From Pseudonocardia sp. HH130629-09 (GTDB lineage: Bacteria > Actinomycetota > Actinomycetes > Mycobacteriales > Pseudonocardiaceae), in the NCBI RefSeq assembly GCF_001294645.1, contig NZ_CP011868.1:3658001-3722000 (forward strand): DNA of 64,000 nucleotides, read 5' to 3'. The stretch's first letter is position 1; every line of letters begins with the position of its first letter. Below, piece after piece: positions 15,612-28,717 of the stretch. The notes below the pieces were generated by a model. The model did not search any database and had not been told where the DNA came from. It saw only the letters and a list, made by a program, of their open reading frames with translations. Both the position numbers and the translations under genes were made by a program.

Positions 15612-15735
15612 GGGCGGAGAATGGCCGAACCGGCACCCGCAGCGTGGCGTTTCCGGCCGGAACGGCCGTCCCGGCGACGAACGTCCGGACCTATCCACCC
15701 ACCTCTCCCAGGATGCGAACATCACTTTGTGGCGA

Positions 15736-15747
15736 GTCCGGACACCG
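15736..15747 (-). promoter_or_regulatory. CGGTGTCCGGAC motif before leader 1
   Basis: Read on the minus strand the bases are CGGTGTCCGGAC. The same 12-mer occurs at 20909-20920 and 22311-22322 ahead of leaders 2 and 3. It ends 15 bp before the leader 1 start, where a regulator could occlude the promoter. Role is inferred only from co-occurrence. Confidence 0.4.
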
Positions 15748-15762
15748 TGGCACCCTGTATCC

Positions 15763-15846
15763 GTGCCCGCACTCCGTCTCCGCCTCGTGGCGCGTCGCCA
15801 CGTGGACCTGAACCGGACCCGTAGCGCGCTCTGTCGTCGGCACTGA
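15763..15846 (+). CDS. Leader peptide 1 (RRHVDL type) before the sulfite reductase operon
   Basis: A 27-codon ORF, VPALRLRLVARRHVDLNRTR then SALCRRH, ends 88 bp before sirA. It has the LVxRRHVDLxR...SALC pattern of short putative leader peptides that, to my knowledge, are annotated before actinomycete sulfur genes. A single Cys sits four residues from the end. An internal GTG at 15787 is another start. Likely role: ribosome stalling when Cys-tRNA is scarce, controlling the sulfur operon. The mechanism is inference; the ORF and its position are seen. Confidence 0.8.
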   Translation: MPALRLRLVARRHVDLNRTRSALCRRH

Positions 15847-15867
15847 CCCGACGGCCCCTTCTGAACC

Positions 15868-15897
15868 GCCCGGGCCGCTCCGCGCCCCGTCCCGGGC
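15868..15897 (+). promoter_or_regulatory. Hairpin between leader 1 and sirA
   Basis: GCCCGGG at 15868-15874 pairs exactly with CCCGGGC at 15891-15897 across 16 bases. It lies between the leader stop and the sirA ribosome binding site, where an attenuator structure would be expected. There is no U-tract, so a Rho-linked or translational mechanism would fit better than an intrinsic terminator. Confidence 0.4.
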
Positions 15898-15934
15898 CGG
15901 AGTGCGCCCGAACCCACATCGGAGCACCCACCAC

Positions 15935-17602
15935 ATGGCGCCCTCGAAGACCGCACCCCGCCGCCCGAAGGGCCAGGGGCAGTGGAAGCTCGGCCACCGC
16001 GAACCGCTGAACCCCAACGAGCGCAACAAGCGCGACGACAACCCGCTCAACGTGCGCGCGCGGATCGAGAACGTCTACGCCAAGCGCGGCTTCGACTCGA
16101 TCGACCCCGCCGACCTGCGCGGCCGGTTCCGCTGGATGGGGCTCTACACCCAGCGCAGGCCCGGGATCGACGGCGGCCGCACCGCGGCGCTGGAGCCCGA
16201 GGAGCTCGACGACTCCTACTTCATGATGCGCGTGCGCCTCGACGGCGGCTCGGTCTCGGTCGAGCAGCTGCGCGCGCTCGGTGAGGTCTCGCAGCGCTAC
16301 GGCCGCGACACCGCCGACGTCACCGACCGGGAGAACATCCAGTACCACTGGATCCGCGTCGAGGACGTCCCGGCGATCTGGAACCTGATCGAGCCGCTGG
16401 GCATGCAGACCACCGAGGCCTGCGGCGACTGCCCGCGCGTGGTCATGGGCTCCCCCGTCGCCGGCGTCTCCGCCGACGAGGTGGTGGACCCGACCCCGGC
16501 CATCGACGAGATCGTGCGCCGCTTCATCGGCGACCGCGAGCTGTCGAACCTGCCGCGCAAGTTCAAGTCCGCGATCTCCTGGCAGCAGGACGTCGCGCAC
16601 GAGATCAACGACATCTCCTTCGTCGGCGTGGAGCACCCCGAGCACGGCCCCGGCTTCGACCTGTGGGTCGGCGGTGGCCTGTCGACCAACCCGCGGATCG
16701 CGGAGCGCCTCGGCGCCTGGGTCCCGCTGGACGAGGTGCCCGACGTGTGGCACGGCGTCATCCAGGTCTTCCGCGACTACGGCTACCGTCGCCTGCGCCA
16801 CCGCGCTCGCATCAAGTTCCTCATCGCCGACTGGGGCCCGGAGAAGTTCCGCCAGGTCCTGGAGGACGAGTACCTGGGCCGGAAGCTGGTCGACGGTCCC
16901 GCCCCGGCGGTCCCCGAGCGCCCGATCGACCACGTCGGCGTCCACAAGCAGAAGGACGGCCGCAACTACGTCGGCGCCGCCCCGCCCTCGGGCCGGGTGT
17001 CGGGCACGACGCTGCTCGCCGTCGCCGACGCCGCCGAGCGCGCCGGGTCGGACCGCATCCGGTTCACCCCGTACCAGAAGATCGTCGTGCTGGACGTGGC
17101 CGACGACAAGCTCGACGGGCTGGTCGAGGACCTGAACAAGCTCGGGCTGCCGGCCCGGCCGTCGACCTGGCGTCGTTCGACGATGGCCTGCACCGGCATC
17201 GAGTTCTGCAAGCTCGCGATCGTCGAGACCAAGGAGCGGGCGATCCGGCTGGTCGAGGACCTGGAGAAGCGTCTCGCCGACGTCGTCCCCGACGTGCCGA
17301 TCACGCTGCACCTCAACGGCTGCCCGAACGCCTGCGCCCGCACCCAGGTCGCCGACATCGGGCTCAAGGGCCAGATCGTCACCGACGCCGACGGCAACCA
17401 GGTCGAGGGCTTCCAGGTGCACCTGGGCGGCGGGCTCGGGCTGGACTCCGGGTTCGGCCGCAAGCTGCGCGGGCTCAAGGTCACCAGCGCCGAGCTGGGT
17501 GACTACGTCGAGCGGATCGTGCGCCGCTTCGCCGAGCAGCGCGACGGCGACGAGCGCTTCGCCCAGTGGGTCCTGCGGGCCGACGAGGCGGACCTGAAAT
17601 GA
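15935..17602 (+). CDS. sirA: Ferredoxin-dependent assimilatory sulfite reductase
   Basis: Reduces sulfite to sulfide with six electrons from ferredoxin, using siroheme and a 4Fe-4S cluster. The 555-residue protein has both duplicated nitrite/sulfite reductase halves; cluster ligands are CTGIEFC and CPNAC in the C-terminal half. Position at the head of a cysH-cysD-cysN operon favours sulfite over nitrite. The ATG at 15935 has GGAG about ten bases upstream; a longer in-frame start at 15902 is less likely. The stop overlaps the next ORF (ATGA). Confidence 0.95.
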   Translation: MAPSKTAPRRPKGQGQWKLGHREPLNPNERNKRDDNPLNVRARIENVYAKRGFDSIDPADLRGRFRWMGLYTQRRPGIDGGRTAALEPEELDDSYFMMRVRLDGGSVSVEQLRALGEVSQRYGRDTADVTDRENIQYHWIRVEDVPAIWNLIEPLGMQTTEACGDCPRVVMGSPVAGVSADEVVDPTPAIDEIVRRFIGDRELSNLPRKFKSAISWQQDVAHEINDISFVGVEHPEHGPGFDLWVGGGLSTNPRIAERLGAWVPLDEVPDVWHGVIQVFRDYGYRRLRHRARIKFLIADWGPEKFRQVLEDEYLGRKLVDGPAPAVPERPIDHVGVHKQKDGRNYVGAAPPSGRVSGTTLLAVADAAERAGSDRIRFTPYQKIVVLDVADDKLDGLVEDLNKLGLPARPSTWRRSTMACTGIEFCKLAIVETKERAIRLVEDLEKRLADVVPDVPITLHLNGCPNACARTQVADIGLKGQIVTDADGNQVEGFQVHLGGGLGLDSGFGRKLRGLKVTSAELGDYVERIVRRFAEQRDGDERFAQWVLRADEADLK

Positions 17603-17775
17603 GCGAGCGCGCCGCGACGTTCTACTGCCCGTACTGCGGCGAGGAGGACCTGCGTCCGGCCGAACGGTCGGACAAGGTCCCCGGTGCCGCCTGGTGGTGC
17701 GCCGGTTGCCTGCGCACCTTCGTCGTGACCTTCGTGGGGATCGGCGTCCCCGAGACCTCGGGAGCGGAATCATGA
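17599..17775 (+). CDS. Small zinc-ribbon protein in the sulfur operon
   Basis: A 58-residue protein with two CxxC pairs (CPYC at about 10-13, CAGC at about 36-39) that would bind one zinc. It overlaps sirA upstream and cysH downstream by four bases each, so all three are translationally coupled. Its job is unknown; a role in assembly or regulation of the reductases is a guess from the tight coupling. Confidence 0.85.
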   Translation: MSERAATFYCPYCGEEDLRPAERSDKVPGAAWWCAGCLRTFVVTFVGIGVPETSGAES

Positions 17776-18476
17776 GTGTTGCCATGGAGACCGACCTGCG
17801 GGTCACCGCCGAGCGCGGTGCCGCCGACCTCGGTTCCGACGCGACCGCCGAGCAGGTGCTCGCCTGGGCCGCGGAGACCTTCGGCGACCGGCTGATCGTC
17901 GCCTCCAACATGCAGGACGCCGTCCTGGTCGACCTCGCCCAGCGGGCGAAGCCGGACGTCGACGTGCTGTTCCTGGAGACCGGTTACCACTTCGCGGAGA
18001 CCATCGGCACCCGCGACGCGGTCGACGCCGTCTACCCGCAGCTGCGCATCGTGAACGCGCAGGCGGACCAGTCGGTCGCCGAGCAGGACGCCGAGTACGG
18101 CAAGGACCTGTTCGCCCGCGAGCCGGACCGCTGCTGTGCGCTGCGCAAGGTCGTCCCGCTGGAGCGGACCCTGTCCGGCTACGACGCCTGGGTCACCGGC
18201 GTCCGCCGTGTGGAGGCCCCGACCCGGGCGAACACCCCGCTGGTCACCTACGACGAGAAGTTCGGCCTGGTGAAGGTCAACCCGATCGCCGCCTGGTCCG
18301 ACGAGGACATGGACGCCTACATCGCCGAGCACGGGATCCTGGTGAACCCGCTGGTCGACGCCGGCTACCCGAGCATCGGCTGCGCCCCCTGCACGGCGAA
18401 GCCGCAGCCCGGCGAGGACCCACGCTCCGGTCGCTGGGCCGGTCGCGCCAAGACCGAGTGCGGGCTGCACGCATGA
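17772..18476 (+). CDS. cysH: Adenylyl-sulfate (APS) reductase CysH
   Basis: Reduces APS to sulfite and AMP. The 234-residue protein carries the PP-loop nucleotide fold and the four cysteines of 4Fe-4S type APS reductases: CC in DRCCALRK and GCAPC near residue 205, plus the C-terminal catalytic ECGLH. These cysteines, and the lack of an APS kinase in the operon, indicate APS rather than PAPS as substrate. It overlaps neighbouring genes on both sides. Confidence 0.95.
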   Translation: MSVAMETDLRVTAERGAADLGSDATAEQVLAWAAETFGDRLIVASNMQDAVLVDLAQRAKPDVDVLFLETGYHFAETIGTRDAVDAVYPQLRIVNAQADQSVAEQDAEYGKDLFAREPDRCCALRKVVPLERTLSGYDAWVTGVRRVEAPTRANTPLVTYDEKFGLVKVNPIAAWSDEDMDAYIAEHGILVNPLVDAGYPSIGCAPCTAKPQPGEDPRSGRWAGRAKTECGLHA

Positions 18477-19411
18477 CCGCCCTGGAGGAGACCGCCGTGA
18501 CCCCCGCCGTCACGACCCCGGCCCTCGACGCGCTCGACGCCCTGGAGTCCGAGGCGATCCACGTGTTCCGCGAGGTCGCCGGCGAGTTCGACCGCCCGGT
18601 GATCCTGTTCTCCGGTGGCAAGGACTCGACGCTGCTGGTGCACCTGGCGATCAAGGCGTTCGCGCCGGCCAAGGTGCCGTTCGGTCTGCTGCACGTCGAC
18701 ACCGGGCACAACTACCCCGAGGTCATCGAGTTCCGGGACCGGGTCGCCGCGCAGTACGGGCTGCGCCTGGACGTCGCCCGTGTCGAGGACTACCTCGCCG
18801 ACGGCCGGCTCGTCGAGCGCGCCGACGGCACCCGCAACCCGCTGCAGACCCAGCCGCTGCTCGACGCGATCGCCGAGCACCGCTTCGACGCCGTGTTCGG
18901 CGGTGGCCGGCGCGACGAGGAGCGCGCCAGGGCCAAGGAGCGGATCATGAGCCTGCGCGACGCGTTCGGCCGCTGGGACCCGCGCAAGCAGCGCCCGGAG
19001 CTGTGGAACCTCTACAACGGACGGCACGCCCCCGGTGAGCACGTCCGCGTGTTCCCGATCTCGAACTGGACCGAGCTCGACGTCTGGCGCTACATCCGGC
19101 GCGAGGGCATCGAGCTGCCGTCGATCTACTACGCGCACGAGCGCGAGGTGTTCCGGCGCGACGGCATGTGGCTCGCCGAGGGTCCCTGGGGCGGAGCGCG
19201 CGACGGCGAGAAGCTGGAGCGCAGGTCGATCCGCTACCGCACGGTGGGCGACGGCTCGTGCACCGGAGCCGTCGAGTCCACCGCCATCACCCTCGACGAG
19301 GTCATCGCCGAGGTCACCGCGTCGCGGCTCACCGAGCGTGGCGCGACCCGGGCCGACGACCGGCTGTCCGAGGCCGCGATGGAGGACCGGAAGAAGGAGG
19401 GCTACTTCTGA
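18473..19411 (+). CDS. cysD: Sulfate adenylyltransferase subunit 2 CysD
   Basis: Catalytic subunit of ATP sulfurylase, making APS from sulfate and ATP. The 312-residue protein has the PP-loop SGGKDST, then HVDTGHNYPE and the FGGGRRDEERAR segment. Start ATG at 18473 overlaps the cysH stop by four bases; an earlier in-frame start inside cysH is not needed. It works as a heterodimer with CysN, whose gene overlaps by one base (TGATG). Confidence 0.97.
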   Translation: MTALEETAVTPAVTTPALDALDALESEAIHVFREVAGEFDRPVILFSGGKDSTLLVHLAIKAFAPAKVPFGLLHVDTGHNYPEVIEFRDRVAAQYGLRLDVARVEDYLADGRLVERADGTRNPLQTQPLLDAIAEHRFDAVFGGGRRDEERARAKERIMSLRDAFGRWDPRKQRPELWNLYNGRHAPGEHVRVFPISNWTELDVWRYIRREGIELPSIYYAHEREVFRRDGMWLAEGPWGGARDGEKLERRSIRYRTVGDGSCTGAVESTAITLDEVIAEVTASRLTERGATRADDRLSEAAMEDRKKEGYF

Positions 19412-20709
19412 TGGTGGACACCGCCACCCCGCGCGACCTGCTGCGCTTCGCCACGGCGGGCTCCGTCGACGACGGCAAGTCCACTCTGGTCGGGCGCCTG
19501 CTCTACGACACGAAGTCGGTGCTGGCCGACCAGATCGAGGCCGTCGAGCGCGCCTCGGTCGACAAGGGGATGTCCACCCCGGACCTGTCGCTGCTCGTCG
19601 ACGGCCTGCGCGCCGAGCGCGAGCAGGGCATCACCATCGACGTCGCCTACCGCTACTTCGGCACGCCGACGCGGGAGTTCGTGCTCGCCGACACCCCGGG
19701 CCACGTGCAGTACACCCGCAACACCGTCACCGGAGCCTCCACCGCGGAGCTGGCGGTGCTGCTGGTCGACGCCCGCAACGGCGTGGTCTCCCAGACCCGC
19801 CGGCACGCCGCGGTGCTGTCGCTGCTGCGCGTCCCGCGTCTGGTCCTGGCGATCAACAAGATCGACCTCATCGAGTACGACGAGGCCAAGATCGCCGACA
19901 TCGAGCGCGAGTTCACCGAGCTCACCCGCTCGCTCGGCTTCGACGACGCCACGGTGCAGGTCATCCCGCTGTCCGCGCTGGTCGGGGACAACGTGGCGTC
20001 CCGCAGCGGGCACACCCCCTGGTACACCGGGCCGACGCTGCTGGAGCACCTGGAGTCGGTCCCGGTCGAGGGCCCGGACACCACGGCCCCGTTCCGGATG
20101 CCGGTCCAGTACGTGATCCGGCCCCGCACGGACGAGCTCCACGACTACCGCGGCTACGCGGGCCAGGTCGCCTCGGGCACCGTCCGTCCGGGCGACGAGG
20201 TCGTCGTCCTGCCCGAGGGGCACCGCACCACCGTCTCCGAGGTCCGGACCTCCGACGGCCCGCTGGCGGCCGCCGGGGCCGGGCTCAGCGTGACGGTGCT
20301 GCTCGCCGACGACATCGACGCCCCCCGCGGCGCCCTGATCGCGGCCGCGTCCGACGTCCCGGAGGTCACCTCCGAGATCGACGCGACGCTGTGCTGGCTG
20401 GCCGAGAAGCCGCTGCTGCCCGGCGCGCGGCTGCTGCTCAAGCACGGCACCCGCACCACCCAGGTGATCGTGGGGACGCTGGGGTCGCGGCTGGACACCG
20501 AGACGGTGTCCTACGCCCCCGCCCCGGAGAAGCTGGAGATCAACGACATCGGACGGGTGTCGCTGCGCGTCGCCGACCCGCTGCCGGTCGACGCCTACGC
20601 CCGCGTCCGCACCACCGGCGGGTTCCTGCTGATCGACCCGCCGACGGGCAACACGCTCGCCGCCGGGCTGGTGGGCGACCCGCTCGCGGCGGTGCCGGCC
20701 GCCGGCTGA
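19411..20709 (+). CDS. cysN: Sulfate adenylyltransferase GTPase subunit CysN
   Basis: GTP hydrolysis by CysN drives APS formation by CysD. The 432-residue protein is EF-Tu-like: P-loop GSVDDGKST, DTPGH, NKID, and three beta domains. It ends without a C-terminal CysC (APS kinase) fusion that many actinobacterial homologues have. This fits the APS-using CysH in the same operon. It is the last gene before the terminator at 20727-20759. Confidence 0.96.
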   Translation: MVDTATPRDLLRFATAGSVDDGKSTLVGRLLYDTKSVLADQIEAVERASVDKGMSTPDLSLLVDGLRAEREQGITIDVAYRYFGTPTREFVLADTPGHVQYTRNTVTGASTAELAVLLVDARNGVVSQTRRHAAVLSLLRVPRLVLAINKIDLIEYDEAKIADIEREFTELTRSLGFDDATVQVIPLSALVGDNVASRSGHTPWYTGPTLLEHLESVPVEGPDTTAPFRMPVQYVIRPRTDELHDYRGYAGQVASGTVRPGDEVVVLPEGHRTTVSEVRTSDGPLAAAGAGLSVTVLLADDIDAPRGALIAAASDVPEVTSEIDATLCWLAEKPLLPGARLLLKHGTRTTQVIVGTLGSRLDTETVSYAPAPEKLEINDIGRVSLRVADPLPVDAYARVRTTGGFLLIDPPTGNTLAAGLVGDPLAAVPAAG

Positions 20710-20726
20710 ACACTCCGCGCCGTCCA

Positions 20727-20759
20727 CGGCCCCCGCATCCGCTCCGGGTGCGGGGGCCG
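20727..20759 (+). terminator. Hairpin terminator after cysN
   Basis: CGGCCCCCGCA at 20727-20737 pairs perfectly with TGCGGGGGCCG at 20749-20759 around an 11-base loop. It sits 17 bp after the cysN stop. There is no U-run, as is common in high-GC actinobacteria. Confidence 0.75.
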
Positions 20760-20820
20760 CGTCGTACCCGGCTCCGCGACGACGACCGCGGCCGAGGGTG
20801 GCAGTGGCGTCGCGACCCGG

Positions 20821-20890
20821 CGGTGATCGCGACGGGGGAGGGGATCGGTGCCCGAACCGGCACCGATCCCCTCGCTGCCGGCGATCACCG
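20821..20890. repeat. Nested 70-nt inverted repeat in the cysN-leader 2 gap
   Basis: An inner perfect 15-bp arm pair (GAGGGGATCGGTGCC at 20838-20852, GGCACCGATCCCCTC at 20859-20873, six-base loop) is enclosed by an outer 10-bp pair (CGGTGATCGC at 20821-20830, GCGATCACCG at 20881-20890). In between are seven unpaired bases on each side. It is too long for a simple second terminator; a structured RNA or a protein-binding palindrome are both possible. The 373-bp gap has no other gene before leader 2. Confidence 0.75.
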
Positions 20891-20908
20891 GGTGGGCGCG
20901 ACGGGGCA

Positions 20909-20920
20909 CGGTGTCCGGAC
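20909..20920 (+). promoter_or_regulatory. CGGTGTCCGGAC motif before leader 2
   Basis: Same 12-mer as at 15736-15747 (inverted) and 22311-22322. It is 163 bp before leader 2. A 9-bp inverted repeat (GCCCGGACA at 20979-20987, TGTCCGGGC at 21006-21014) with a similar GTCCGG core lies between. Confidence 0.35.
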
Positions 20921-21083
20921 CGGCCCCGGTGTGTCGGGTCACAGCCGTGGCCCACGACAGCGATTCGTCCACGCCTCCGCCCGGACATCAGCTGGTCACA
21001 GCAGTTGTCCGGGCACCTTCACCGCGGTCCCGGTCTGCGGACGTCGGCTTGTCGACACCCCGCTCGCGTTCCACCATGGATCG

Positions 21084-21236
21084 GTGACCACCACCGCCAC
21101 GCCCGCCGACCGGGTCCTGTCACCCGGCCGCTCGCAGGCGGATCCGGCGGTGTCCTGGCACCTCGTCGCGCACCTCGAGCGGTTCTGGCCGTCGCGCCGG
21201 CTCGACGCGTTCGACGAGTTCTGTCGCGCTCGCTGA
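21084..21236 (+). CDS. Leader peptide 2 (FWPSRR/DEFC type) before TauE/SafE exporter
   Basis: A 50-codon GTG ORF ending 136 bp before the exporter gene. Its C-terminal half reads WHLVAHLERFWPSRRLDAFD then EFCRAR and matches leader 3 residue by residue in the pattern HL.R..E.FWPSRR..A.DEFC.R. The lone Cys is four residues from the end, as in leader 1. I know of no described family with this motif. Conservation with leader 3 at protein level argues that it is translated. Control of the exporter by cysteine supply is inference. Confidence 0.7.
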   Translation: MTTTATPADRVLSPGRSQADPAVSWHLVAHLERFWPSRRLDAFDEFCRAR

Positions 21237-21372
21237 CCCGTCCCACGGCGCCGAGCGCCACCCCACCACACCACCGGTCACCGTGACCGCGGCCGCCCCG
21301 CCACCCGCGTCCCCCACCGGGACGGGCCGGGGCCCGGGACCGCGTCCACCGGCAGTCCGGGAAGGATCGTCC

Positions 21373-22287
21373 GTGCCCACACTCATCGTCTTCGCCCTCG
21401 TCGGCCTCGCGGCCCAGCTGGTCGACGGCGCGCTCGGCATGGCCTACGGCATCACCTCGACCTCGCTGCTGGTCTTCGCCGGGATCAACCCAGCCACCGC
21501 GAGCGCCTCGGTGCACCTGGCCGAGGTCGGCACCACGCTCGCCTCCGGCGCCTCGCACTGGCGCTTCGGCAACGTCGACTGGAAGCTCGTGCTCAAGCTG
21601 GGCGTGCCGGGTGCGATCGGCGCGTTCCTGGGAGCGACGCTGCTGTCGGCCCTGTCCACCGAGAACGCCGCCCCGTTCATGTCGGGGATCCTGCTCGCCC
21701 TCGGCGTCTACGTCCTGCTGCGCTTCAGTGTGCGGCCGCCGAAGGTCGCCACCGCCCGCACCTCCCCGCACGGCGCCCGGTTCCTGTCCCCGCTCGGCCT
21801 GGTCGCCGGATTCGTCGACGCGTCCGGCGGCGGCGGGTGGGGCCCGGTCTCCACCCCGGCCCTGCTCGGCGCCGGACGGACCGCACCGCGCACCGTCGTC
21901 GGTTCGGTCAGCGCCTCGGAGTTCCTGGTGGCGCTCGCCGCGAGCGCCGGGTTCCTCGTCGGGCTCGGCCACGAGGTGCTCGCCCCCTCCACCATCGGCG
22001 GGCTGCTGATCGGTGGGGTGCTGGCCGCGCCGCTGGCGGCCTGGCTCGTCACCCGAATCCCGACGCCGGTCCTGGGCTCGGCGGTCGGCGGCGTCATCAT
22101 CCTCACCAACGCCCGGACGCTGCTGCGGGCCGCCGACGCGAGCGGTGCGGTGACCGCGGCCGTCTACGCCGTCATCCTCGTGCTGTGGGCGCTGGCGATC
22201 GGTGCGGCGGTCACCCGGCTGCGCCGCAGCCGGACCGAGGACGCGGCGACGCCGGTCGACCAGGAGCAGCCGGTCTCCACCGGCTGA
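21373..22287 (+). CDS. TauE/SafE family sulfite exporter
   Basis: The 304-residue membrane protein has the two-repeat TauE/SafE (DUF81) fold with about eight hydrophobic segments; the repeat motifs are GITSTSLLVFAGINPA and GGGGWGPVSTPALLGAG. GTG at 21373 has GGAAGGA six bases upstream, so longer in-frame readings are rejected. Family members move sulfite or organosulfonates; position after the sulfur operon and a Cys leader supports sulfite export. Direction and substrate are inferred. Confidence 0.88.
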   Translation: MPTLIVFALVGLAAQLVDGALGMAYGITSTSLLVFAGINPATASASVHLAEVGTTLASGASHWRFGNVDWKLVLKLGVPGAIGAFLGATLLSALSTENAAPFMSGILLALGVYVLLRFSVRPPKVATARTSPHGARFLSPLGLVAGFVDASGGGGWGPVSTPALLGAGRTAPRTVVGSVSASEFLVALAASAGFLVGLGHEVLAPSTIGGLLIGGVLAAPLAAWLVTRIPTPVLGSAVGGVIILTNARTLLRAADASGAVTAAVYAVILVLWALAIGAAVTRLRRSRTEDAATPVDQEQPVSTG

Positions 22288-22310
22288 CCTCCCCACGGGC
22301 CGGGCGGATG

Positions 22311-22325
22311 CGGTGTCCGGACACC
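22311..22325 (+). promoter_or_regulatory. Palindromic CGGTGTCCGGAC motif before leader 3
   Basis: GGTGTCCGGACACC (22312-22325) is a perfect 14-bp palindrome containing the 12-mer shared with the regions ahead of leaders 1 and 2. It is 58 bp before leader 3, in a gap with no gene. This copy is the most complete and is the best operator candidate. Confidence 0.45.
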
Positions 22326-22383
22326 CCGTCCGTCCCGTGGGCGACACCTTGTCCGCTTCGTCCCGACGGCGCACGATCGGGCC

Positions 22384-22512
22384 ATGACCGCCCCGGTGTC
22401 CCGTCGCTGCGCGACGCACCCCGCGGTCCTCACGCACCTCGCGCGAGACCGGGAGGAGTTCTGGCCGTCCCGGCGGCCGCACGCCTACGACGAGTTCTGT
22501 CCGCGGTTCTGA
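22384..22512 (+). CDS. Leader peptide 3 (FWPSRR/DEFC type) before YeiH-type exporter
   Basis: A 42-codon ATG ORF. Key part: HLARDREEFWPSRRPHAYDE then FCPRF; it also has an early Cys (SRRCATHP). It is clearly related to leader 2 and lies 64 bp before the mini-ORF and small membrane protein that start the next transcription unit. The duplication of this leader before two different sulfur exporters is strong evidence that both are under the same control. Confidence 0.72.
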   Translation: MTAPVSRRCATHPAVLTHLARDREEFWPSRRPHAYDEFCPRF

Positions 22513-22576
22513 GGCGCGTGGCCCGCCGGGCCACGCGCCGCCGTGTACCCGCAGCCACTCGTCGTGGAGGAACTCC

Positions 22577-22609
22577 ATGTCCCGCACCACCTCCGGGGGC
22601 CACCCGTGA
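22577..22609 (+). CDS. Ten-codon coupled mini-ORF
   Basis: ATG at 22577 is preceded by a strong ribosome site (GGAGG, seven bases upstream) and encodes MSRTTSGGHP before a TGA that overlaps the next GTG (GTGA). The best ribosome binding site in the area thus serves this tiny frame, and the small membrane protein downstream would be translated by coupling. It may be only a ribosome-delivery device. Confidence 0.4.
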   Translation: MSRTTSGGHP

Positions 22610-22782
22610 GCACCCCGTCCGACACCCCGCCCGGCACTCGCGCCGGCACCGAACACGAGCCCGGGGACGTCCCCGCACAGCGGCGCCTCGCCCTGAACGA
22701 GGACTGGGCCGCGACGGTCGTCGGCCTCCTCCTGCTCGTCCTGATCCTGTCCGGGCTCTGGCCGGGGTGGCTGGTCCCGTGA
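22606..22782 (+). CDS. Small single-TM protein coupled to YeiH-type exporter
   Basis: A 58-residue protein: hydrophilic first half, then LNEDWAATVVGLLLLVLILS as the start of one membrane helix ending GLWPGWLVP. Its stop overlaps the exporter GTG by four bases. From memory, some long YeiH-family proteins begin with a similar NEDWWAV... helix, so this could be that N-terminal piece encoded as a separate subunit. This is inference. Confidence 0.7.
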   Translation: MSTPSDTPPGTRAGTEHEPGDVPAQRRLALNEDWAATVVGLLLLVLILSGLWPGWLVP

Positions 22783-23963
22783 CCGACCAGCACGCCGGCC
22801 GACCGGCCGAACCAGGGACCACACCGCCGACCACGCCGCAGACCCAGCCGGAGACCGGGCCCGACTCCGGGACGCAGGCGTCGACCCGCTCCACCCTCCT
22901 GTGGGGGCTCGGCGGAGTCGCGGTCGTCCTCGTCCTCGGCGGACTCGTCCGCTTCCTCGAACAGACCGTCCCGGACGCCGCCGAGGGCACCGCGCTGTCC
23001 GGGATCGCCGACGCGATCGAGTACCCGGTCTACGCGATCGCGCTCGGGCTGCTCGGCAACGTCGTGCTCACCCTGACCGGGCTGCGCGAACGGCTCTCGG
23101 GCGGCTTCCGCACCGAGTTCTTCATCAAGACCGGTCTGGTCCTGCTCGGCGCCTCGATCGACTTCTCGATCATCGTCCGCGCCGCCGGACCGGCCGTGGT
23201 GCAGGCGGTCGTCCTGATCACCGTGGTCTTCGGCTTCACCTGGTGGCTCGCCGGGCGGGCCGGGGTCGACGACAAGCTCCGCGCCCTGCTGGCGTCCGCG
23301 GTGTCCATCTGCGGCGTCAGCGCGGCGATCGCGGCCGCCGGCGCGGTGCAGGCCCGCAAGGAGCAGCTCGCCTACACGGCCAGCCTGGTGATCCTCTTCG
23401 CGCTGCCGTCGATCTTCCTGCTGCCCGCCGCCGTCGGGGCGCTGGGTCTGTCGCCCGCCGCCGCCGGTGCGTGGATCGGCGGCAACATCGACACCACCGC
23501 CGCGGTCAGCGCGGCCGGGGCGATCGTCGGCGAGGAGGCGCTGCAGATCGCGACCATCGTGAAGACCACCCAGAACGCGCTGCTGGGCGTCGTCGCGGTG
23601 GCGCTGACGGCCTACTTCACGCTGAAGGTCGAGCGCAGCGGCTCGGCGGGCCGGCCGGGCCTGCGCGAGTTCTGGGAGCGCTTCCCCAAGTTCGTGCTCG
23701 GGTTCCTCGCCGCCTCGGTGATCGCGACCGTGTTCGTCGCGACCGCCGGCTCCGACGTCGCGAAGCCGCTGATCAGCGACGTCAACGCCTTCCGGACGAC
23801 GTTCCTGATCCTGGCCTTCGTCTCGATCGGCCTGGAGTTCCGGGTGGCACCGCTGCGGGAGGCCGGGTGGCGCCCGATCGGGGTGTTCGCCGCGGCGACC
23901 GGGGTCAACCTGGCCGTCGGCCTCGGACTGGCGGTCCTGCTGTTCTCCGGTCTGACGGTCTGA
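22779..23963 (+). CDS. YeiH family putative sulfate exporter
   Basis: The 394-residue membrane protein belongs to the YeiH/UPF0324 (Cons_hypoth698) family: LGLLGNVVLTLTGL, FFIKTGLVLLGASIDF, SICGVSAAIAAAGAVQARKE, IGGNIDTTAAVSAAG and IATIVKTTQNALLG are visible landmarks; about ten helices. The first 35 residues are a polar P/T-rich tail. GTG start is set by overlap with the small membrane protein. Sulfate or sulfonate export is the family guess, here supported by a sulfur-type leader upstream. Confidence 0.87.
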   Translation: MTDQHAGRPAEPGTTPPTTPQTQPETGPDSGTQASTRSTLLWGLGGVAVVLVLGGLVRFLEQTVPDAAEGTALSGIADAIEYPVYAIALGLLGNVVLTLTGLRERLSGGFRTEFFIKTGLVLLGASIDFSIIVRAAGPAVVQAVVLITVVFGFTWWLAGRAGVDDKLRALLASAVSICGVSAAIAAAGAVQARKEQLAYTASLVILFALPSIFLLPAAVGALGLSPAAAGAWIGGNIDTTAAVSAAGAIVGEEALQIATIVKTTQNALLGVVAVALTAYFTLKVERSGSAGRPGLREFWERFPKFVLGFLAASVIATVFVATAGSDVAKPLISDVNAFRTTFLILAFVSIGLEFRVAPLREAGWRPIGVFAAATGVNLAVGLGLAVLLFSGLTV

Positions 23964-23969
23964 GTCCGG

Positions 23970-24000
23970 GTCCCGCCCGGGGGCACACCCCGGGCGGGAC
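23970..24000. terminator. Bidirectional hairpin terminator
   Basis: GTCCCGCCCGGGG (23970-23982) pairs perfectly over 13 bp with CCCCGGGCGGGAC (23988-24000), loop GCACA. It lies between the convergent ends of the exporter gene and the FAD/NAD(P) gene, six and three bases from their stops. Confidence 0.88.
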
Positions 24001-24003
24001 GGC

Positions 24004-25956
24004 TCAGGCCGCCGGGACGGCGCGGGCCGCGGCGCCGGGCAGGGCCCCCAGCACGGCCCGGGCGACGGCGTCGTTGTAGCGCAGGCTCTGCGCGTTCATC
24101 CCGGGCCGGGTGAACGCCCCCGCGACCTTGACCGTGGTGTGCGGCCCGACCGCGAACCGTCGCTCGTGCACCCCGCCGTCCGCGGTGTGCAGTGCGCCGT
24201 CGGCCGGGCGGACCGACAGCAGTCCGGTGTTGCGCAGCGGGGCGCCGTCGTCGTCGTACAGCACCTCTTCGACGGCCTCACCACGGGCGAGCAGCCCGCC
24301 CAGCAGCCCGTCCACGGTGCGCGAGACGCTCGGGTCGGGCAGCCGGGCGTCGACCAGCACCCGGGAGGTGACCGGCTCCGCACCGGCGAGGGTGGTGCTC
24401 GTGGCGTGGAACCCGTCGGCGTCGACGTCGACGGTCATCCCCGCCCCGAGGAACCGCAGGTACCCGGCACGGGAGAGCGCGAGCATCTGGCGGACCCGGA
24501 ACCCCGGCGGGCCGGAGGCGACGGAGTTGAAGAACGACTGCCACCACGGCAGCTCCCGCGCCCGCGAGCGCGGTGAGAGCACCCCGGCCCCGGCGAGGCG
24601 GGTGGTCTCGGTGTAGACCGACAGCATCGCGACGAACGCGCCCAGGTGCGGGGTGTGCCGCTCGTCCACGTGCTGGCGCAGGTCCTCGGAGATGCGCTCG
24701 CGCACCAGCGGTTGCAGCGTCTCCAGGTCCGGGGCGTGCACGCCGTCGAGCGGCCGGTCCAGCGCGGTGAGGTCGAGGCGGTCGAGCGGGTCCGGCACCA
24801 GCTCGGCAATCAGCGCCGTCTCCTCGGGCGAGCCGTGCGCGACGGCCGCGAAGCGCTCGGCGAACTCGTCCCACCCGGCGCGGACACGGTCGGGGTGGCC
24901 GACGAACAGCTCGTGGTACCAGCCCCAGCCGATCTCCTTCGCCATCAGCGGCCACACCTGGGTGCCGACGTCGACCGGGCCACCGGAGGCGATCAGGGCG
25001 TCGACCACCTCGGGCGTGAGGAACCGCGGCAGCGGCGGACGCCCGCCCCGCAGCTGGTAGTGGGTCTTGGAGTGGTAGGTCGCGCCGCGCGGGGACCCGC
25101 CGACCAGCACCGGCTCCCGCCCGCACGGCTCGTAGCGCAGCCGGTCCGGGTCGGTGTCGTCCGGGTCCGCCACGAAGCGCCCGCCGCGGCCCTCGAACAA
25201 CAGCACCACGAGGTCGACGAACGCCAGCCCCAGCCCGCGGGCCAGCACGGTCTCGCCCGGGGCGATGACCGAGAGGTCGGAGTCCGAGGTCTGCTCGGGT
25301 GGCAGGTAGCGCAGGCCGAGCTCGGCGGCGCGGGCGGCGAGCGCGATCTCGTCGTCGGTGGGGGTGGCGTCGAGGTGCCCGGAGGCCAGGACGACGGCGT
25401 CGCCGCGCAGGACGGTGCCGTCGGCGAGGGTCACGACCTGCCGGCCGTCGGCCTCGTCGAGGGCCTCGGCGGTGCTGCGGTGCACGTGCACCCGCATCCC
25501 GGCCGGCGCCCGCTCGACGACCTCGCGCAGCACCGCGGCGAGGTAGTGGCTCTGCAGCCGCCGCGACGGGAACGTCGACGCCGTGACCTGCGCCAGCTCG
25601 TCGGTGAGCTCCGGACCAAGCCCGGCAACCGGGTCACCGTGCTCGCGCAGGTCCCGTGCCCAGTCCCAGAACGACGGGCCGGGCGCCACCGGGCCGTCGC
25701 AGACGACCGAGTCGTCGGTCCACATCGTGACGTCAGCGGCCATCGAGTTCATCGCGAGCAGCGGAAACTGCGCGTGCCGCCAGATGCGGCCCGCCCCGGC
25801 CGGGAACGGGTCGACGAGGTGGACGTTGACGCCGGGTCCCGCGAGGGCGTCGGGCAGCAGCTCGGGGGCACTCGCGACCATCCGCTCGAGCACGCCGGCC
25901 CCGCGGGGGCCGGCGCCGACGATCACGACGGACGGGGCGTGCGGACTACGGGACAT
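24004..25956 (-). CDS. Large FAD/NAD(P)-binding oxidoreductase under a Cys leader
   Basis: The 650-residue protein starts with a Rossmann motif (VVIVGAGPRGAGVLERM) and belongs to the FAD-NAD(P)-binding (NAD_binding_9) group of large proteins of unknown reaction. Other landmarks are FPLLAMNSMAADVTMW, VLASGHLDATPTDDE and a C-terminal KVAGAFTRPGMNAQS. ATG has AGGAG six bases upstream. A leader ORF ends 39 bp before it. The reaction is unknown; the leader suggests a role in sulfur metabolism or a response to low cysteine. Confidence 0.8.
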   Translation of the reverse strand: MSRSPHAPSVVIVGAGPRGAGVLERMVASAPELLPDALAGPGVNVHLVDPFPAGAGRIWRHAQFPLLAMNSMAADVTMWTDDSVVCDGPVAPGPSFWDWARDLREHGDPVAGLGPELTDELAQVTASTFPSRRLQSHYLAAVLREVVERAPAGMRVHVHRSTAEALDEADGRQVVTLADGTVLRGDAVVLASGHLDATPTDDEIALAARAAELGLRYLPPEQTSDSDLSVIAPGETVLARGLGLAFVDLVVLLFEGRGGRFVADPDDTDPDRLRYEPCGREPVLVGGSPRGATYHSKTHYQLRGGRPPLPRFLTPEVVDALIASGGPVDVGTQVWPLMAKEIGWGWYHELFVGHPDRVRAGWDEFAERFAAVAHGSPEETALIAELVPDPLDRLDLTALDRPLDGVHAPDLETLQPLVRERISEDLRQHVDERHTPHLGAFVAMLSVYTETTRLAGAGVLSPRSRARELPWWQSFFNSVASGPPGFRVRQMLALSRAGYLRFLGAGMTVDVDADGFHATSTTLAGAEPVTSRVLVDARLPDPSVSRTVDGLLGGLLARGEAVEEVLYDDDGAPLRNTGLLSVRPADGALHTADGGVHERRFAVGPHTTVKVAGAFTRPGMNAQSLRYNDAVARAVLGALPGAAARAVPAA

Positions 25957-25995
25957 GGGGCGCTCCTGGGTCGGCGGGCGGAGGGGGACGACCCC

Positions 25996-26067
25996 TCACG
26001 GCGCCCACCGCAGGCGGCACAGGTCGACGTGCCTGCGCCTCACCAGCCGGAGACCCATGGCGTCCAC
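25996..26067 (-). CDS. Leader peptide 4 (RRHVDLC type) before the FAD/NAD(P) gene
   Basis: A 23-codon ORF from GTG at 26067 with GGAG seven bases upstream; an internal ATG at 26058 gives MGLRLVRRRHVDLCRLRWAP. The LRLVRRRHVDL core matches leaders 1 and 5, and a Cys follows it directly. It lies on the minus strand, 39 bp ahead of the large oxidoreductase gene and in the same direction. Same inferred role as leader 1. Confidence 0.78.
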   Translation of the reverse strand: MDAMGLRLVRRRHVDLCRLRWAP

Positions 26068-26160
26068 GGTAGGTCTCCTCCCCGTCCACGGCCACCCGTC
26101 ACGGACCGTTCCCCGGGGTCAACGTCGTGCCGCACCTCTGAGATTCCGGGGCGTGGCCGT

Positions 26161-26532
26161 TCAGGTCGCCGGACCCGCCAGGGTGACCCGCAACGGCCGG
26201 TCGGTGCCCGCCGTCGTCTCGACGGCCTCGGCGAGGATCTCCAGGACGGCCGCGTGGGTGCCGGGGTCGGCCGCGGCGAGCGGCCCGTCGGCGACGACGA
26301 GCTCGACCGGCCCGGGGGGCAGCCAGGACAGGTCGCCCAGGCAGTCCGCCAGCGCGTCGAGGTTGTGGCCGTAGTACTCGGGGAAGCTCAGCGCCCGGCC
26401 GAGGGCGGACAGGACCGCGGTGCGGTCCGCGACCCCCTCGACGACGGCGACGAGACCGGTGCCACCGGCCCGCCCCCGGGCCGCGTCGACGGCGGGCGCG
26501 GTTCCGGCGCTCTCACGGGGAAGGGTGCTCAC
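26161..26532 (-). CDS. Barstar family ribonuclease inhibitor
   Basis: The 123-residue protein has the barstar fold signature SFPEYYGHNLDALADCLGDL and a Trp/acidic stretch that in barstar plugs the RNase active site. GTG at 26532 overlaps the RNase stop by four bases, so the inhibitor is made right after the enzyme. It protects the cell from the exported RNase encoded upstream; the pairing is inferred from overlap and families. Confidence 0.88.
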   Translation of the reverse strand: MSTLPRESAGTAPAVDAARGRAGGTGLVAVVEGVADRTAVLSALGRALSFPEYYGHNLDALADCLGDLSWLPPGPVELVVADGPLAAADPGTHAAVLEILAEAVETTAGTDRPLRVTLAGPAT

Positions 26533-27023
26533 CTCGAGACGTCTACCACGACGAACGAGGCGTAGTGGTCGGCCGTGTAGTAGTACTCCCCGCCCGATCC
26601 GGTGACGATCCGCCGGGCACCGCGGGTGCTCGACCCGGGGGTCGTCACGGTGAACTCCTTGTAGTAGCCCGAGGACTTCGCGGGCAGGATCCCCTCCCGG
26701 TTCTGGAAGGTCGTCCCGTCCTGGCTGTACGGGTACGGCCCGCCGGAGCGGATCAGCCGGTAGGTGTCGGTGGCCTGCGACGGCAGCGACGACAGCGCCC
26801 GCACCGGCAGCCCGGACTCCTCCTCCCCCGGCACGGCGGCCGGGGCGGCGGGAGCGGCGACGGCGGCCGGGGCGGCGGGAGCGGCGACGGCGGCCGCCGC
26901 GGCCGGGGCGGGTGCGGCGACGGCCGCGGCGGGCAGGGCGAGGCCGAGGACGGCCAGTACGGCGACGAGCGCCCCGACGATCAGGGCACACAGCCCGGAC
27001 CGCGCATCCGGTCGAATGATCAT
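26529..27023 (-). CDS. Secreted guanyl-specific ribonuclease (RNase Sa/barnase type)
   Basis: A 164-residue protein with a Sec signal (ALIVGALVAVLAVLGLALPA, starting about residue 13), an Ala/Pro-rich spacer and a C-terminal microbial RNase domain of about 95 residues. RNase Sa landmarks are all visible: GGPYPYSQDGTTFQNREG, the catalytic Glu in YKEFTV, Arg in GARRI and His in ADHYASF. ATG at 27023 is used; a GTG at 27047 is an alternative. Encoded with its barstar downstream; likely acts outside the cell. Confidence 0.9.
   Translation of the reverse strand: MIIRPDARSGLCALIVGALVAVLAVLGLALPAAAVAAPAPAAAAAVAAPAAPAAVAAPAAPAAVPGEEESGLPVRALSSLPSQATDTYRLIRSGGPYPYSQDGTTFQNREGILPAKSSGYYKEFTVTTPGSSTRGARRIVTGSGGEYYYTADHYASFVVVDVSR
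26833..26886. repeat. 27-bp tandem repeat in the RNase spacer
   Basis: Two identical 27-bp units plus a partial third encode the repeating Ala-Pro spacer (about AAPAAPAAV per unit) between signal peptide and catalytic domain. Copy number is a multiple of three, so length change keeps the frame. Confidence 0.75.
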
Positions 27024-27338
27024 GGTCCGGACGCTAGGTTGTGTCACCCTTTCGGGTACAGGTGTCGCAACGAACCGTCACGGGCTCGTCACCCGCCGTT
27101 TCCATGACCGGCGCGACGACCACCCTCCGTTCGCCCGCCGACCGCGCCGACCGGCCCCCTGACAGGCGATGATCACGACCGATCACCGCGCCGGTGCACC
27201 CGGTCACCGTGTCCTGCGTCGCACCAGTGTTCTACGCACAGTAAAAGAGCGTTGGAGCGGGTACAACGGAGTACGAGAGACCAGGAACGACTGCGCATGA
27301 CACGCCCCGACCCCGACACGTTCAACGGAGAACGTCGC
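27024..27338. other. Gene-poor gap between RNase and small ORF
   Basis: About 315 bp holding the divergent start regions of the RNase gene and the next small ORF. I see no further gene, and no convincing -35/-10 pair. Confidence 0.5.
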
Positions 27339-27581
27339 ATGACCGCAGAGTTGATTCACCCCCTGCCCGAGGCTCCCCCACCCGTGGAGACCCCGGCACC
27401 CCAGGCCGGCCGCTCGACCGTGGACCGGCTGCTGGACTCGATCGACGACCTGGTGCGCCGCCACCGTGCGCTCGCCGCACACGACGGCGCCTCCGCCGCC
27501 CTGCACGCCGAGCTGATCGCGGCCGAGCTGGACCAGCAGGTCGCGATCCTCCGGACGATGCCCCGCCAACCCGGCGGCTGA
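27339..27581 (+). CDS. Small helical protein of unknown function
   Basis: An 80-residue protein with a Pro-rich start and a helical second half (VDRLLDSIDDLVRRHRALAA, then LHAELIAAELDQQVAILRTM). ATG at 27339 has GGAG eight bases upstream; ATG at 27297 (94 aa, AGGAA upstream) is the alternative. No family recognised. It ends 9 bp before the convergent oxidoreductase stop. Confidence 0.6.
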   Translation: MTAELIHPLPEAPPPVETPAPQAGRSTVDRLLDSIDDLVRRHRALAAHDGASAALHAELIAAELDQQVAILRTMPRQPGG

Positions 27582-27590
27582 CCGAACGGG

Positions 27591-28451
27591 TCAGAGCTCG
27601 GCGGCCGCCGGGATGATCTCCGACCCGAACACCCGCAACGGCTCGATCGCCGCCACGTCCGGCACCATGGTGTGCACGTGCTGCACGCCGAGTGCCGCAT
27701 AGCCGCGCAGCTCCTCGACCGCCGCCTTCGGATCGGCCGGGTCGAGCCGCGTCATGACCGTCTTCTCGATCTCGTCGTAGTCGCGCCCCACCTCCTCGCA
27801 GCGGGTGCGCAGCACGTCCAGCTTGCGCTCCAGCTCGGGGCCGCCGAACAGGTTGCACGCGTCGGCGTACTGCGCGACCAGGCGCAGCGTCTTCCTCTCC
27901 CCACCACCGCCGATCAGGATCGGCGGGTGCGGCCTGCGCAGCGGCTGCGGCGTGTTCAGCGTGGCGCCGAGCCGGTAGTGGGTGCCCTCGAAGGGGCCGT
28001 CGTCGTCGCTCCACATCTGCCGGGCGATGCGCAGCGTCTCCTCCAGCCGCTCGAACCGCTCGGCCGTCGGCGGGAAGAACAGTCCGAGCCCGGTGGCCTC
28101 CTCGTCGTTCCAGGCGGCGCCGATGCCCAGCATCGCGCGGCCCTTCGACAGCACGTCCAGAGTGGTCACGGCCTTCACCAGCAGACCAGGGTCGCGGTAG
28201 GTCACCGCGGTCACCCAGGCCAGCAGGTCGACCTTCTCGGTGCGGGTCGCCAGGTAGCCGAGCACGGTGTAGGCCTCGAGCATGTCGGTCTCGACCGGTC
28301 CGACCGGCCGGATCTGCCAGAGGTGGTCCATGACGCTCACCCGTGCGAAGCCCTGTTCCTCGGCCGCCGCGGCGATCCGGGACAGGTCGTCGGCCAGCCC
28401 GGCCGGGCCGGCCGGGTAGGTGAAGTCCGCGATGTGCAGTCCGATCCTCAC
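27591..28451 (-). CDS. LLM-class (probably F420-dependent) oxidoreductase
   Basis: The 286-residue protein is a luciferase-like monooxygenase TIM barrel, with MDHLWQI, GIGAAWNDEEATGLGLFFPP and PILIGGGGERKTLRLVAQYAD as clear family motifs. In actinobacteria this subgroup normally uses coenzyme F420. GTG at 28451 has GGGAGGA five bases upstream. A 20-bp perfect palindrome lies 14 bp before the start, so a TetR-like regulator probably controls it. Substrate unknown. Confidence 0.85.
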   Translation of the reverse strand: MRIGLHIADFTYPAGPAGLADDLSRIAAAAEEQGFARVSVMDHLWQIRPVGPVETDMLEAYTVLGYLATRTEKVDLLAWVTAVTYRDPGLLVKAVTTLDVLSKGRAMLGIGAAWNDEEATGLGLFFPPTAERFERLEETLRIARQMWSDDDGPFEGTHYRLGATLNTPQPLRRPHPPILIGGGGERKTLRLVAQYADACNLFGGPELERKLDVLRTRCEEVGRDYDEIEKTVMTRLDPADPKAAVEELRGYAALGVQHVHTMVPDVAAIEPLRVFGSEIIPAAAEL

Positions 28452-28465
28452 AGCTGTCCTCCCAG

Positions 28466-28485
28466 AAACGGAGCAATCTCCGTTT
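28466..28485. promoter_or_regulatory. 20-bp perfect palindromic operator before the LLM gene
   Basis: AAACGGAGCAATCTCCGTTT: eight-base perfect arms around CAAT. A second short palindrome, TTACGAGCGTAA, follows immediately at 28484-28495. The shape is typical of TetR-family operators; no regulator gene is adjacent, so it would act in trans. Confidence 0.65.
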
Positions 28486-28602
28486 ACGAGCGTAACCCTC
28501 TCCCGGCGACGGGCGCCACCGCACGCATCGGACCACGGGCGTCGCCGGTTCGGTCGACTCCATCACGTCGCGCAGAACCGTTCGGTGCGGTTCACTGGCG
28601 TC

Positions 28603-28674
28603 GTGATCGCGCTCGTGCGGAGGCTGCACATCGACCTCGCCCGGACGGCCGGGGCGCTCTGTCCGCGCCTCTGA
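28603..28674 (+). CDS. Leader peptide 5 (RRLHIDL type) before OsmC
   Basis: A 23-codon GTG ORF, VIALVRRLHIDLARTAGALC then PRL. It keeps the LVRR.H.DL.R...ALC pattern of leader 1 with conservative changes and has its Cys four residues from the end. It finishes 43 bp before the OsmC start. Linkage of an OsmC peroxidase to cysteine-dependent control is inference. Confidence 0.75.
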   Translation: MIALVRRLHIDLARTAGALCPRL

Positions 28675-28717
28675 TCAGCCGCCCCGCACACGTATCGCAC
28701 CCCTGGGAGTCTCACCC

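Follow-up and report, generated by a model that had tools for sequence, protein, structure and literature searches.

Short leader peptides of two families share a fixed UGU codon and may act as cysteine-responsive attenuators in Pseudonocardia

Introduction

In a 64,000-nucleotide stretch of contig NZ_CP011868.1 of Pseudonocardia sp. HH130629-09 (positions 3,658,001 to 3,722,000; hereafter the window, numbered from its first letter), five short open reading frames (ORFs) stand in front of larger genes, several of which belong to sulfur metabolism. A first-pass annotation took them for five leaders of one kind which together run a local cysteine regulon. The locus therefore raises the question of whether these ORFs are regulatory at all and, if they are, what in them would be read. 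On retranslation all five were recovered at the positions and on the strands that had been given, and chance ORFs can be rejected, since both kinds of leader recur in other genomes. They are not of one kind, however, but fall into two families, and one of the five (leader 4) lacks the proposed sensor codon. In our view the leaders are probably leaderless, cis-acting, cysteine-responsive attenuators, in which either of two conserved nascent chains would be followed by one shared sensor, a UGU codon; the comparison of sequences is the ground for this interpretation. The leaders and their conserved codons are as follows.

15763..15846 (+), leader 1, 27 aa, VPALRLRLVARRHVDLNRTRSALCRRH, NF042934 type, before sirA-cysHDN
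15832..15834 (+), UGU of leader 1 at the conserved terminal cysteine
21084..21236 (+), leader 2, 50 aa, FWPSRR family, C-terminal end HLERFWPSRRLDAFDEFCRAR
21222..21224 (+), UGU of leader 2 at the conserved terminal cysteine
22384..22512 (+), leader 3, 42 aa, FWPSRR family, C-terminal end DREEFWPSRRPHAYDEFCPRF
22498..22500 (+), UGU of leader 3 at the conserved terminal cysteine
25996..26067 (-), leader 4, probably starting at ATG 26058, MGLRLVRRRHVDLCRLRWAP, NF042934-like, without the terminal UGU codon
28603..28674 (+), leader 5, 23 aa, VIALVRRLHIDLARTAGALCPRL, NF042934, above the cut-off
28660..28662 (+), UGU of leader 5 at the conserved terminal cysteine

Results and discussion

The conserved cysteine codon

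In the FWPSRR family, to which leaders 2 and 3 belong, the conserved cysteine is encoded by UGU in all 70 leaders that are distinct with their flanks. The same codon was found in 79 of 79 leaders of a named-genome set (50 of them new) picked by a peptide pattern that leaves the Cys codon out, and the combined count is 115 of 115 distinct core-to-stop sequences. In leaders of the NF042934 type the corresponding position lies eight residues past a conserved DL; UGU occupies it in 66 of 68 distinct leaders, or 66 of the 67 that have a cysteine there, the two exceptions being leader 4, which has a stop at this place, and locus L130, which has UGC. From this cysteine to the stop there are one to four codons in 103 of the 115 FWPSRR leaders.

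Elsewhere UGU is uncommon. The other Cys codons of NF042934-type leaders are UGC 94 times and UGU 27 times (22% UGU), and those of the FWPSRR core and tail 26 and five times, respectively. In 734 predicted genes we counted 1323 UGC and 124 UGU (8.6% UGU), with 58 and eight in the last 12 codons, but these genes were chosen by high third-position GC, which lowers their UGU share and so tells against the contrast, and the p-values of this comparison treat related sequences as independent. T occupies 132 of the 2070 other third positions in the FWPSRR core. In leaders of the CLC or CVC type, UGU stands at the aligned position and the other cysteines are mostly UGC. A synonymous codon that is fixed at 115 of 115 and 66 of 67 places and rare elsewhere in the same genomes is a testable sign that codon identity is the regulatory signal.

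Two peptide families

Leaders 1, 4 and 5 match the NCBIfam model NF042934 with scores of 25.6, 22.4 and 35.1 bits, so that only leader 5 passes the cut-off of 27. This model is of the class cis_reg_atten, as are NF042933 and NF042936, and its description says only 'putative leader peptide'. Leaders 1 and 5 align to the last of the 19 profile positions with the cysteine present; leader 4 aligns at positions 1–14 only, and the cysteine is absent. Orthologues of all three are present in two related genomes. The motif LVxRR.H.DL, which the annotation assigned to these leaders, is exact in leader 1 (LVARRHVDL) and leader 4 (LVRRRHVDL) but not in leader 5, which reads LVRRLHIDL. The annotation had also counted only one or two Cys codons per leader, which agrees with our count (one each in leaders 1, 2, 4 and 5, and two, separated, in leader 3), and had placed a cysteine near or within the last third of every leader. 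As a count this stands, but the single cysteine of leader 4 is an earlier UGC and the conserved terminal cysteine is missing.

Mutual alignment of leaders 2 and 3 revealed a shared motif, HL....E.FWPSRR..A.DEFC, which the annotation does not contain. Neither leader has an NCBIfam match, nor do six further peptides of the FWPSRR family, and in Pfam there is only a weak match below the cut-off for leader 3. Judged from these alignments, leaders 2 and 3 represent a second family, with the ending LExFWPSRRxxAFDEFCR, and neither NCBIfam nor Pfam yielded a model for it. At the serine of the motif the codon is TCN in 86 leaders and AGY in 21, with glycine in eight (n = 115). Codons thus drift while residues stay, a pattern which argues for constraint at the protein level.

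Genes behind the leaders in the window

The following genes stand behind the five leaders.

15935..17602 (+), sirA-type sulfite reductase with sulfite reductase domains, first gene behind leader 1
21373..22287 (+), TauE/SafE exporter (Pfam) behind leader 2
22606..22782 (+), conserved 58-aa membrane-like ORF (NEDWAATVVG...), first sizeable gene behind leader 3, overlapping the start of YeiH
22779..23963 (+), YeiH-type protein (PF03601; Pfam)
24004..25956 (-), FAD/NAD(P)-binding protein PF13454 (Pfam) behind leader 4
28718..29167 (+), OsmC-like protein (Pfam) behind leader 5

Pfam domains confirm every gene that the annotation had named. The remainder of the leader 1 operon comprises two proteins with PAPS-reductase domains (CysH and CysD) and an EF-Tu-type GTPase (CysN). 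Leaders 1, 2 and 3 precede cysteine or sulfur genes; OsmC and PF13454, behind leaders 5 and 4, are not sulfur genes by their Pfam names. The spacing of 39–136 bp proposed earlier is correct for leader 1 (88 nt to the sirA ATG at 15935), leader 2 (136 nt to the TauE GTG at 21373), leader 4 (39 nt) and leader 5 (43 nt). It does not hold for leader 3, which first meets the 58-aa ORF and lies 266 nt from the YeiH GTG at 22779. ORFs similar to the 58-aa ORF occur at loci L080 and L226, and it has no Pfam match. We also note a ten-codon ORF, MSRTTSGGHP (22577–22609, plus strand), with GGAGG in front of it, between leader 3 and the 58-aa ORF. The stop of this small ORF overlaps the GTG with which the 58-aa ORF begins, and the 58-aa ORF itself overlaps YeiH, so that the three form a chain of overlapping starts.

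Distribution in the genome and in other genomes

A search of the whole window genome with NF042934 gave 21 rows at E <= 10, eight of them above the cut-off; 16 were accepted as leaders by peptide and position before their Cys codons were tabulated (L016, L018, L019, L020 and L021 were left out, and eight of the 16 score below the cut-off), and the same loose limit also yields matches in ten of 14 control genomes, none above the cut-off. The FWPSRR alignment identified four strong places: leaders 2 and 3, a leader before a beta-carbonic anhydrase and another preceding a binding protein of the NMT1 type (SsuA-like). Of the 20 leaders in total, eight (six of the NF042934 type and two FWPSRR) lie in another island at C1:3.857-3.894 Mb. 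By these matches the set is not a local regulon but comprises about 20 leaders genome-wide, approximately 16 of the NF042934 type and four of the FWPSRR family.

According to Pfam, the genes behind the 16 NF042934-type leaders are a sulfite reductase, two ABC permeases (PF00528; one sits 485 nt from its leader), two acyl-CoA-dehydrogenase-like proteins, three luciferase-like monooxygenases, two OsmC proteins, one Cys/Met-metabolism pyridoxal-phosphate (PLP) enzyme, one DUF4395 gene, one OpuAC-type binding protein and the PF13454 protein. The other two have no match, one of them (L009) being uncertain as an ORF. Presumably the permeases, the monooxygenases and the dehydrogenase-like proteins are organosulfur genes.

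The searches of other genomes scored part of the candidates in many genomes, so that the following tallies may be low, and weak matches were taken without individual inspection; the FWPSRR score was built from peptides all bearing the cysteine, which may under-count leaders without it, and left codon choice unscored. Within the genus Pseudonocardia, 59 of 60 genomes have an FWPSRR match at the loose limit E <= 0.1 and 56 of 60 at 0.001, by the best E listed. In the family, 68 of 249 genomes, from 14 of 46 genera, have a match at E 0.01. In a phylum sample 13 of 396 genomes match at E 0.001, including L112, which on inspection is not a leader. The other twelve are the window's own genome, three genomes of a same-order genus, taken for Mycolicibacterium by likeness to named loci, and eight of a same-class genus, which we take to be Streptomyces. 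A scan of named genomes found 153 FWPSRR relatives; the best 79 were kept, and among these are Pseudonocardia, Actinomycetospora, Mycolicibacterium/Mycobacterium, Klenkia, Goekera and metagenome-assembled genomes, some of them labelled Frankiales. NF042934 was found in 16 of 296 genomes of the phylum sample at E <= 0.0001, and in the order the related model NF042933 matched 54 of 61 genomes at 0.001, with 16 of the 61 above its cut-off. L157 and L172 (of L116–L172) were left out as cut short and L112 as a non-leader.

Genes behind the 115 distinct FWPSRR leaders were sorted by a keyword rule, with representatives of the classes checked by Pfam and the cysteine-dioxygenase-like class named by eye only. 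TauE predominates with 56 (52 of type A and four of type B), followed by SsuA-like proteins (12), the Cys/Met PLP enzyme (four), cysteine-dioxygenase-like proteins (three), CysC (two), YeiH (two), a luciferase-like monooxygenase (one) and an OsmC-like protein (one). At L043, in a related genome, a close relative of leader 2 with the same FWPSRR end precedes another TauE subtype than that at 21084–22287 of the window. Actinomycetospora-like loci (L082, L084, L087–L089, L091, L094 and L100) have FWPSRR leaders before an uncharacterised protein of ~145 aa (HGLVDPxGGSRDLDAMLDEA), with no Pfam match in the one copy scanned (L082).

A separate observation concerns Streptomyces-like genomes (L255:2146-2733 (+) and L104–L111), where the gene behind an FWPSR leader, DLEPFWPSRQHHDFDRVCC, has a DNA-binding domain of the OmpR type, seen by Pfam in one copy (L108); a gene that is glutamine synthetase-like by eye lies in front. 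The OmpR-type gene is possibly a sulfur regulator.

Promoters and upstream boxes

Sequence features upstream of the window leaders are listed below.

15736..15744 (+), GTCCGGACA box upstream of leader 1, supported by motif enrichment
15751..15756 (+), CACCCT, -10-like hexamer of leader 1, 6 nt ahead of its GTG, a leaderless arrangement
21072..21077 (+), CACCAT, -10-like hexamer of leader 2, 6 nt ahead of its GTG
22314..22323 (+), candidate operator upstream of leader 3, the palindromic box TGTCCGGACA
22372..22377 (+), CACGAT, -10-like hexamer of leader 3, 6 nt ahead of its ATG
26066..26071 (-), TACCGT, -10-like hexamer of leader 4, 7 nt ahead of ATG 26058

The pattern xAnnnT lies 6–7 nt before an in-frame ATG or GTG in 52 of 70 FWPSRR leaders and 35 of 68 leaders of the NF042934 type; the respective figures for randomly chosen places in this DNA are about 11 and 9%. 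Leaders 1–4 fit this rule, and leader 4 probably starts at ATG 26058, 7 nt past its hexamer; leader 5 has TTCACT at 6 nt. In Streptomyces lividans a TAnnnT -10 element and 17% leaderless transcripts are reported in the accessible part of the source (PMC8079986).

Many Pseudonocardia FWPSRR promoters have the TGTCCGGACA box upstream, followed by CGGACnnCnnTTGT near -35. CCGGACA is found in 34 of 70 FWPSRR upstream stretches and in one of 137 control stretches, an enrichment that makes a transcription factor acting above these leaders likely. The second CGGAC box near -35 of the Pseudonocardia leaders is spaced with TGTCCGGACA like a pair of activator sites.

The stretch between leader and gene

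The 80 nt past the leader stop are rich in C and poor in G, with a C minus G value of 0.20 for the FWPSRR family and 0.17 for the NF042934 type; upstream of the leaders the values are 0.03 and 0.02, and coding DNA gives 0.07. Before 27 genes of the window, over a slightly different stretch, the value is 0.004, although these include the five leader-preceded genes (0.15, 0.12, 0.11, 0.07 and -0.05). Such RNA is of the kind expected of Rho-dependent attenuators and suggests Rho as a candidate factor acting in this stretch.

Other RNA devices were looked for and set aside. Two terminator-like sites were found in 15700–28800 by a scan that needs a T-rich tail, neither of them between a leader and its gene. 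Rfam gave only two sub-threshold matches, to viral families, in 10000–32000. Folding past the UGU is strong in leader 1 alone (z = -3.08; leaders 2–5, -0.70, -1.86, -1.42 and +2.16), and a hairpin there was rejected as a general feature. In 18 Mycolicibacterium TauE loci (those omitted were near-identical or missed by the start-codon pattern) consensus stems are predicted past the UGU and around the start codon with nearly invariant pairs. We do not build on these stems because only three of 26 pairs change on both sides and most never vary.

In 23 of 62 loci a ribosome stalled on the UGU is predicted to make the ribosome-binding site (RBS) more accessible, by over 0.1; in four it is predicted to make the site less accessible. 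Predicted exposure goes from 0.35 to 0.43 in 48 TauE loci (0.44 with a control ribosome placed earlier) and from 0.52 to 0.62 in 14 SsuA loci (control 0.49). With one to four codons between the cysteine and the stop, a ribosome stalled at the former would shield almost the same RNA as one terminating at the latter, so that the signal would lie less in where the ribosome stands than in how long it dwells there. Control by occlusion, for instance of Rho, would fit this better than classical alternative hairpins.

Proposed mechanism and alternatives

The annotation's idea of cysteine-linked leader peptides, taken as cis-acting elements before sulfur genes, has good comparative support in the protein-level conservation, gene context, leaderless-type promoters and fixed UGU described above; its 'local' was too narrow. 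In the mechanism that we propose, transcription would start at or beside the leader start codon, as the position of the -10 element implies. The nascent chain (RRxHVDLxRxxSAL or LExFWPSRRxxAFDEF), conserved at the protein level, would then slow the next step from within the exit tunnel. The next codon is UGU, which is read by tRNA-Cys(GCA) through a wobble pair; when less tRNA-Cys is charged, the ribosome would stall at this invariant codon. By dwelling there it would keep the C-rich stretch from Rho loading or from folding over the downstream start, and the genes would be expressed; with ample cysteine the ribosome would leave and expression would fall. The loci would be tied together across the genome because all read the same signal. 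Leader 4 would stand outside the stalling step.

A more specific version is conceivable but doubtful: a new type of decoding sensor, in which two nascent peptides prime the ribosome through its tunnel and one Cys codon read by a G-U wobble reports both charged tRNA-Cys and tRNA thiolation. tRNAs that read codons starting with U carry a thiomethylated A37 made by MiaB, the loss of which weakens decoding, and a MiaB gene is present. If this were true, actinobacteria would gauge sulfur by how far their tRNA is thiolated, reading it at one codon in each of tens of operons.

Several observations weigh against the attenuator reading. The poly-Cys leader L130 has UGC at the aligned position, and in the other poly-Cys leaders, which do have UGU there, this codon is also common at other positions. 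Among the genes behind the 115 FWPSRR leaders are the winged-helix gene behind eight Streptomyces-like leaders, with no evident sulfur link, the ~145-aa protein (11), beta-carbonic anhydrases (seven), an 80-aa protein (one) and seven unclassified genes, leader 3 of the window being counted with these because an over-long reading frame was taken. The simple -10 rule fails for 18 of 70 FWPSRR and 33 of 68 NF042934-type leaders, leader 5 included. A hairpin directly past the UGU is not general among 123 and 62 leaders, compared with letter (not dinucleotide) shuffles, and in 11 SsuA-type loci a search for a conserved RNA switch predicted only leader-internal stems and one short stem. The gain in RBS exposure is weak, and for TauE it is no better than that given by the control ribosome position. 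Finally, leader 4 has a stop where the UGU would be, and yet its residues, MGLRLVRRRHVDLCRLRWAP, are kept in two related genomes. In its relative at L252 several codons are changed and the residues retained, from which leader 4 appears to be under selection. By its sequence it is not supported as a cysteine sensor and may use another stop-proximal arrest or respond to another signal.

The alternatives differ in what they make of the peptide and of the codon. Plain hungry-codon attenuation, in which any slow Cys codon near the end suffices, the peptide is irrelevant and UGU is merely slower, is a possibility that we hold only tentatively. UGU is indeed the rarer Cys codon, and mycobacterial poly-Cys leaders are reported to be cysteine-responsive attenuators, according to a paper that cites the work (PMC13236596), but a pure codon sensor needs neither of the two sets of residues that are kept before the cysteine across genera while codons change. 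The converse holds for a ligand-sensing arrest peptide, whose nascent chain would bind a sulfur metabolite and block elongation or release near the cysteine, the residue and not the codon being what matters. TnaC of E. coli is of this kind: it senses Trp with a ligand, stalls close to its stop and has a Rho-type control region. Our leaders resemble it as short conserved peptides and in their proposed arrangement, and the signal proposed for them differs. Strong peptide conservation, the short distance from cysteine to stop and the C-rich stretch downstream would all suit such an arrest, which nevertheless leaves the near-constant UGU unexplained and which we consider unlikely.

Fixation of UGU by RNA pairing or by an RNA or DNA motif, instead of by decoding, is quite improbable. 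The SsuA-type alignment does draw the last U of UGU as paired with an upstream A or G, and the 18 Mycolicibacterium loci have one stem past the UGU and another that contains it. On the other hand, the best score for downstream pairing is no lower when this U is replaced by C in silico (14.42 versus 14.52; 14.2–16.6 for other third positions), the upstream partner is inconstant (G 26, T 18, A 11 and C 7 in 62 leaders), the flanking codons vary and the two families share only the codon. We give very little credence to small proteins acting in trans, for example as metal or thiol binders. Conservation at the protein level would be expected of them, but the about 20 leaders of the window's genome each stand before another gene or operon, the leader stays while the gene behind it differs, and a synonymous codon need not be fixed.

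Relation to known systems

Polycysteine leaderless short ORFs of mycobacteria are reportedly the subject of Canestrari et al. (2020, Mol Microbiol), whose title is said to call them cysteine-responsive; in these a stalled ribosome reportedly frees a sequestered ribosome-binding site. Cysteine-responsive leaderless ORFs of mycobacteria are described in the available portions of three papers that cite or predate it (PMC13236596, PMC4633059 and PMC9094748). The analogy drawn in the first-pass annotation is right in kind, since so far as those portions extend both systems have short leaderless-type ORFs before cysteine or sulfur operons with Cys codons near the end. The window leaders differ in that the constant element is one terminal UGU and not a run of cysteines, in the second family and in a wider set of genes. 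The genome-wide extent of the leaders, as judged from sequence matches, extends the mycobacterial picture.

Candidate cys leader peptides of Mycobacterium and others were proposed in 2005, without terminators and with Rho-dependent termination as one suggested possibility (PMC1262725). The accessible text of that paper describes runs of Cys codons, unlike those here, and mentions neither codon identity nor FWPSRR. The Rhodobacterales cysS upstream ORF (uORFC-8-2), in the excerpt available, has tandem cysteines with UGC dominant and an intrinsic terminator (PMC8632094); it has in common with the window leaders the Cys codons before a cysteine-related gene, and its codon preference is the opposite. 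UGU is therefore not general to Cys attenuators. In the published literature searched we did not find the FWPSRR family or a UGU fixed in both families, although the 2020 polycysteine paper may mention UGU, and a search for RRHVDL returned one unrelated paper only. The analysis gives a loosely annotated class of 'putative leader peptide' a defined sensor position and adds a second leader family, for which no model was found, and provides a sequence tag for mapping the actinobacterial sulfur regulon.

Other observations

A small protein type (RLLD.ID.LV.RHRALA-like by eye) adjoins leaders of both families, at L256:4187-4522 (-), L192, L195 and 27252–27578 (+) of the window; the window copy has no Pfam match. 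At L192 and L195 this protein stands after the leader, and in the copy in the window's own genome the leader frame reads into the protein without a stop.

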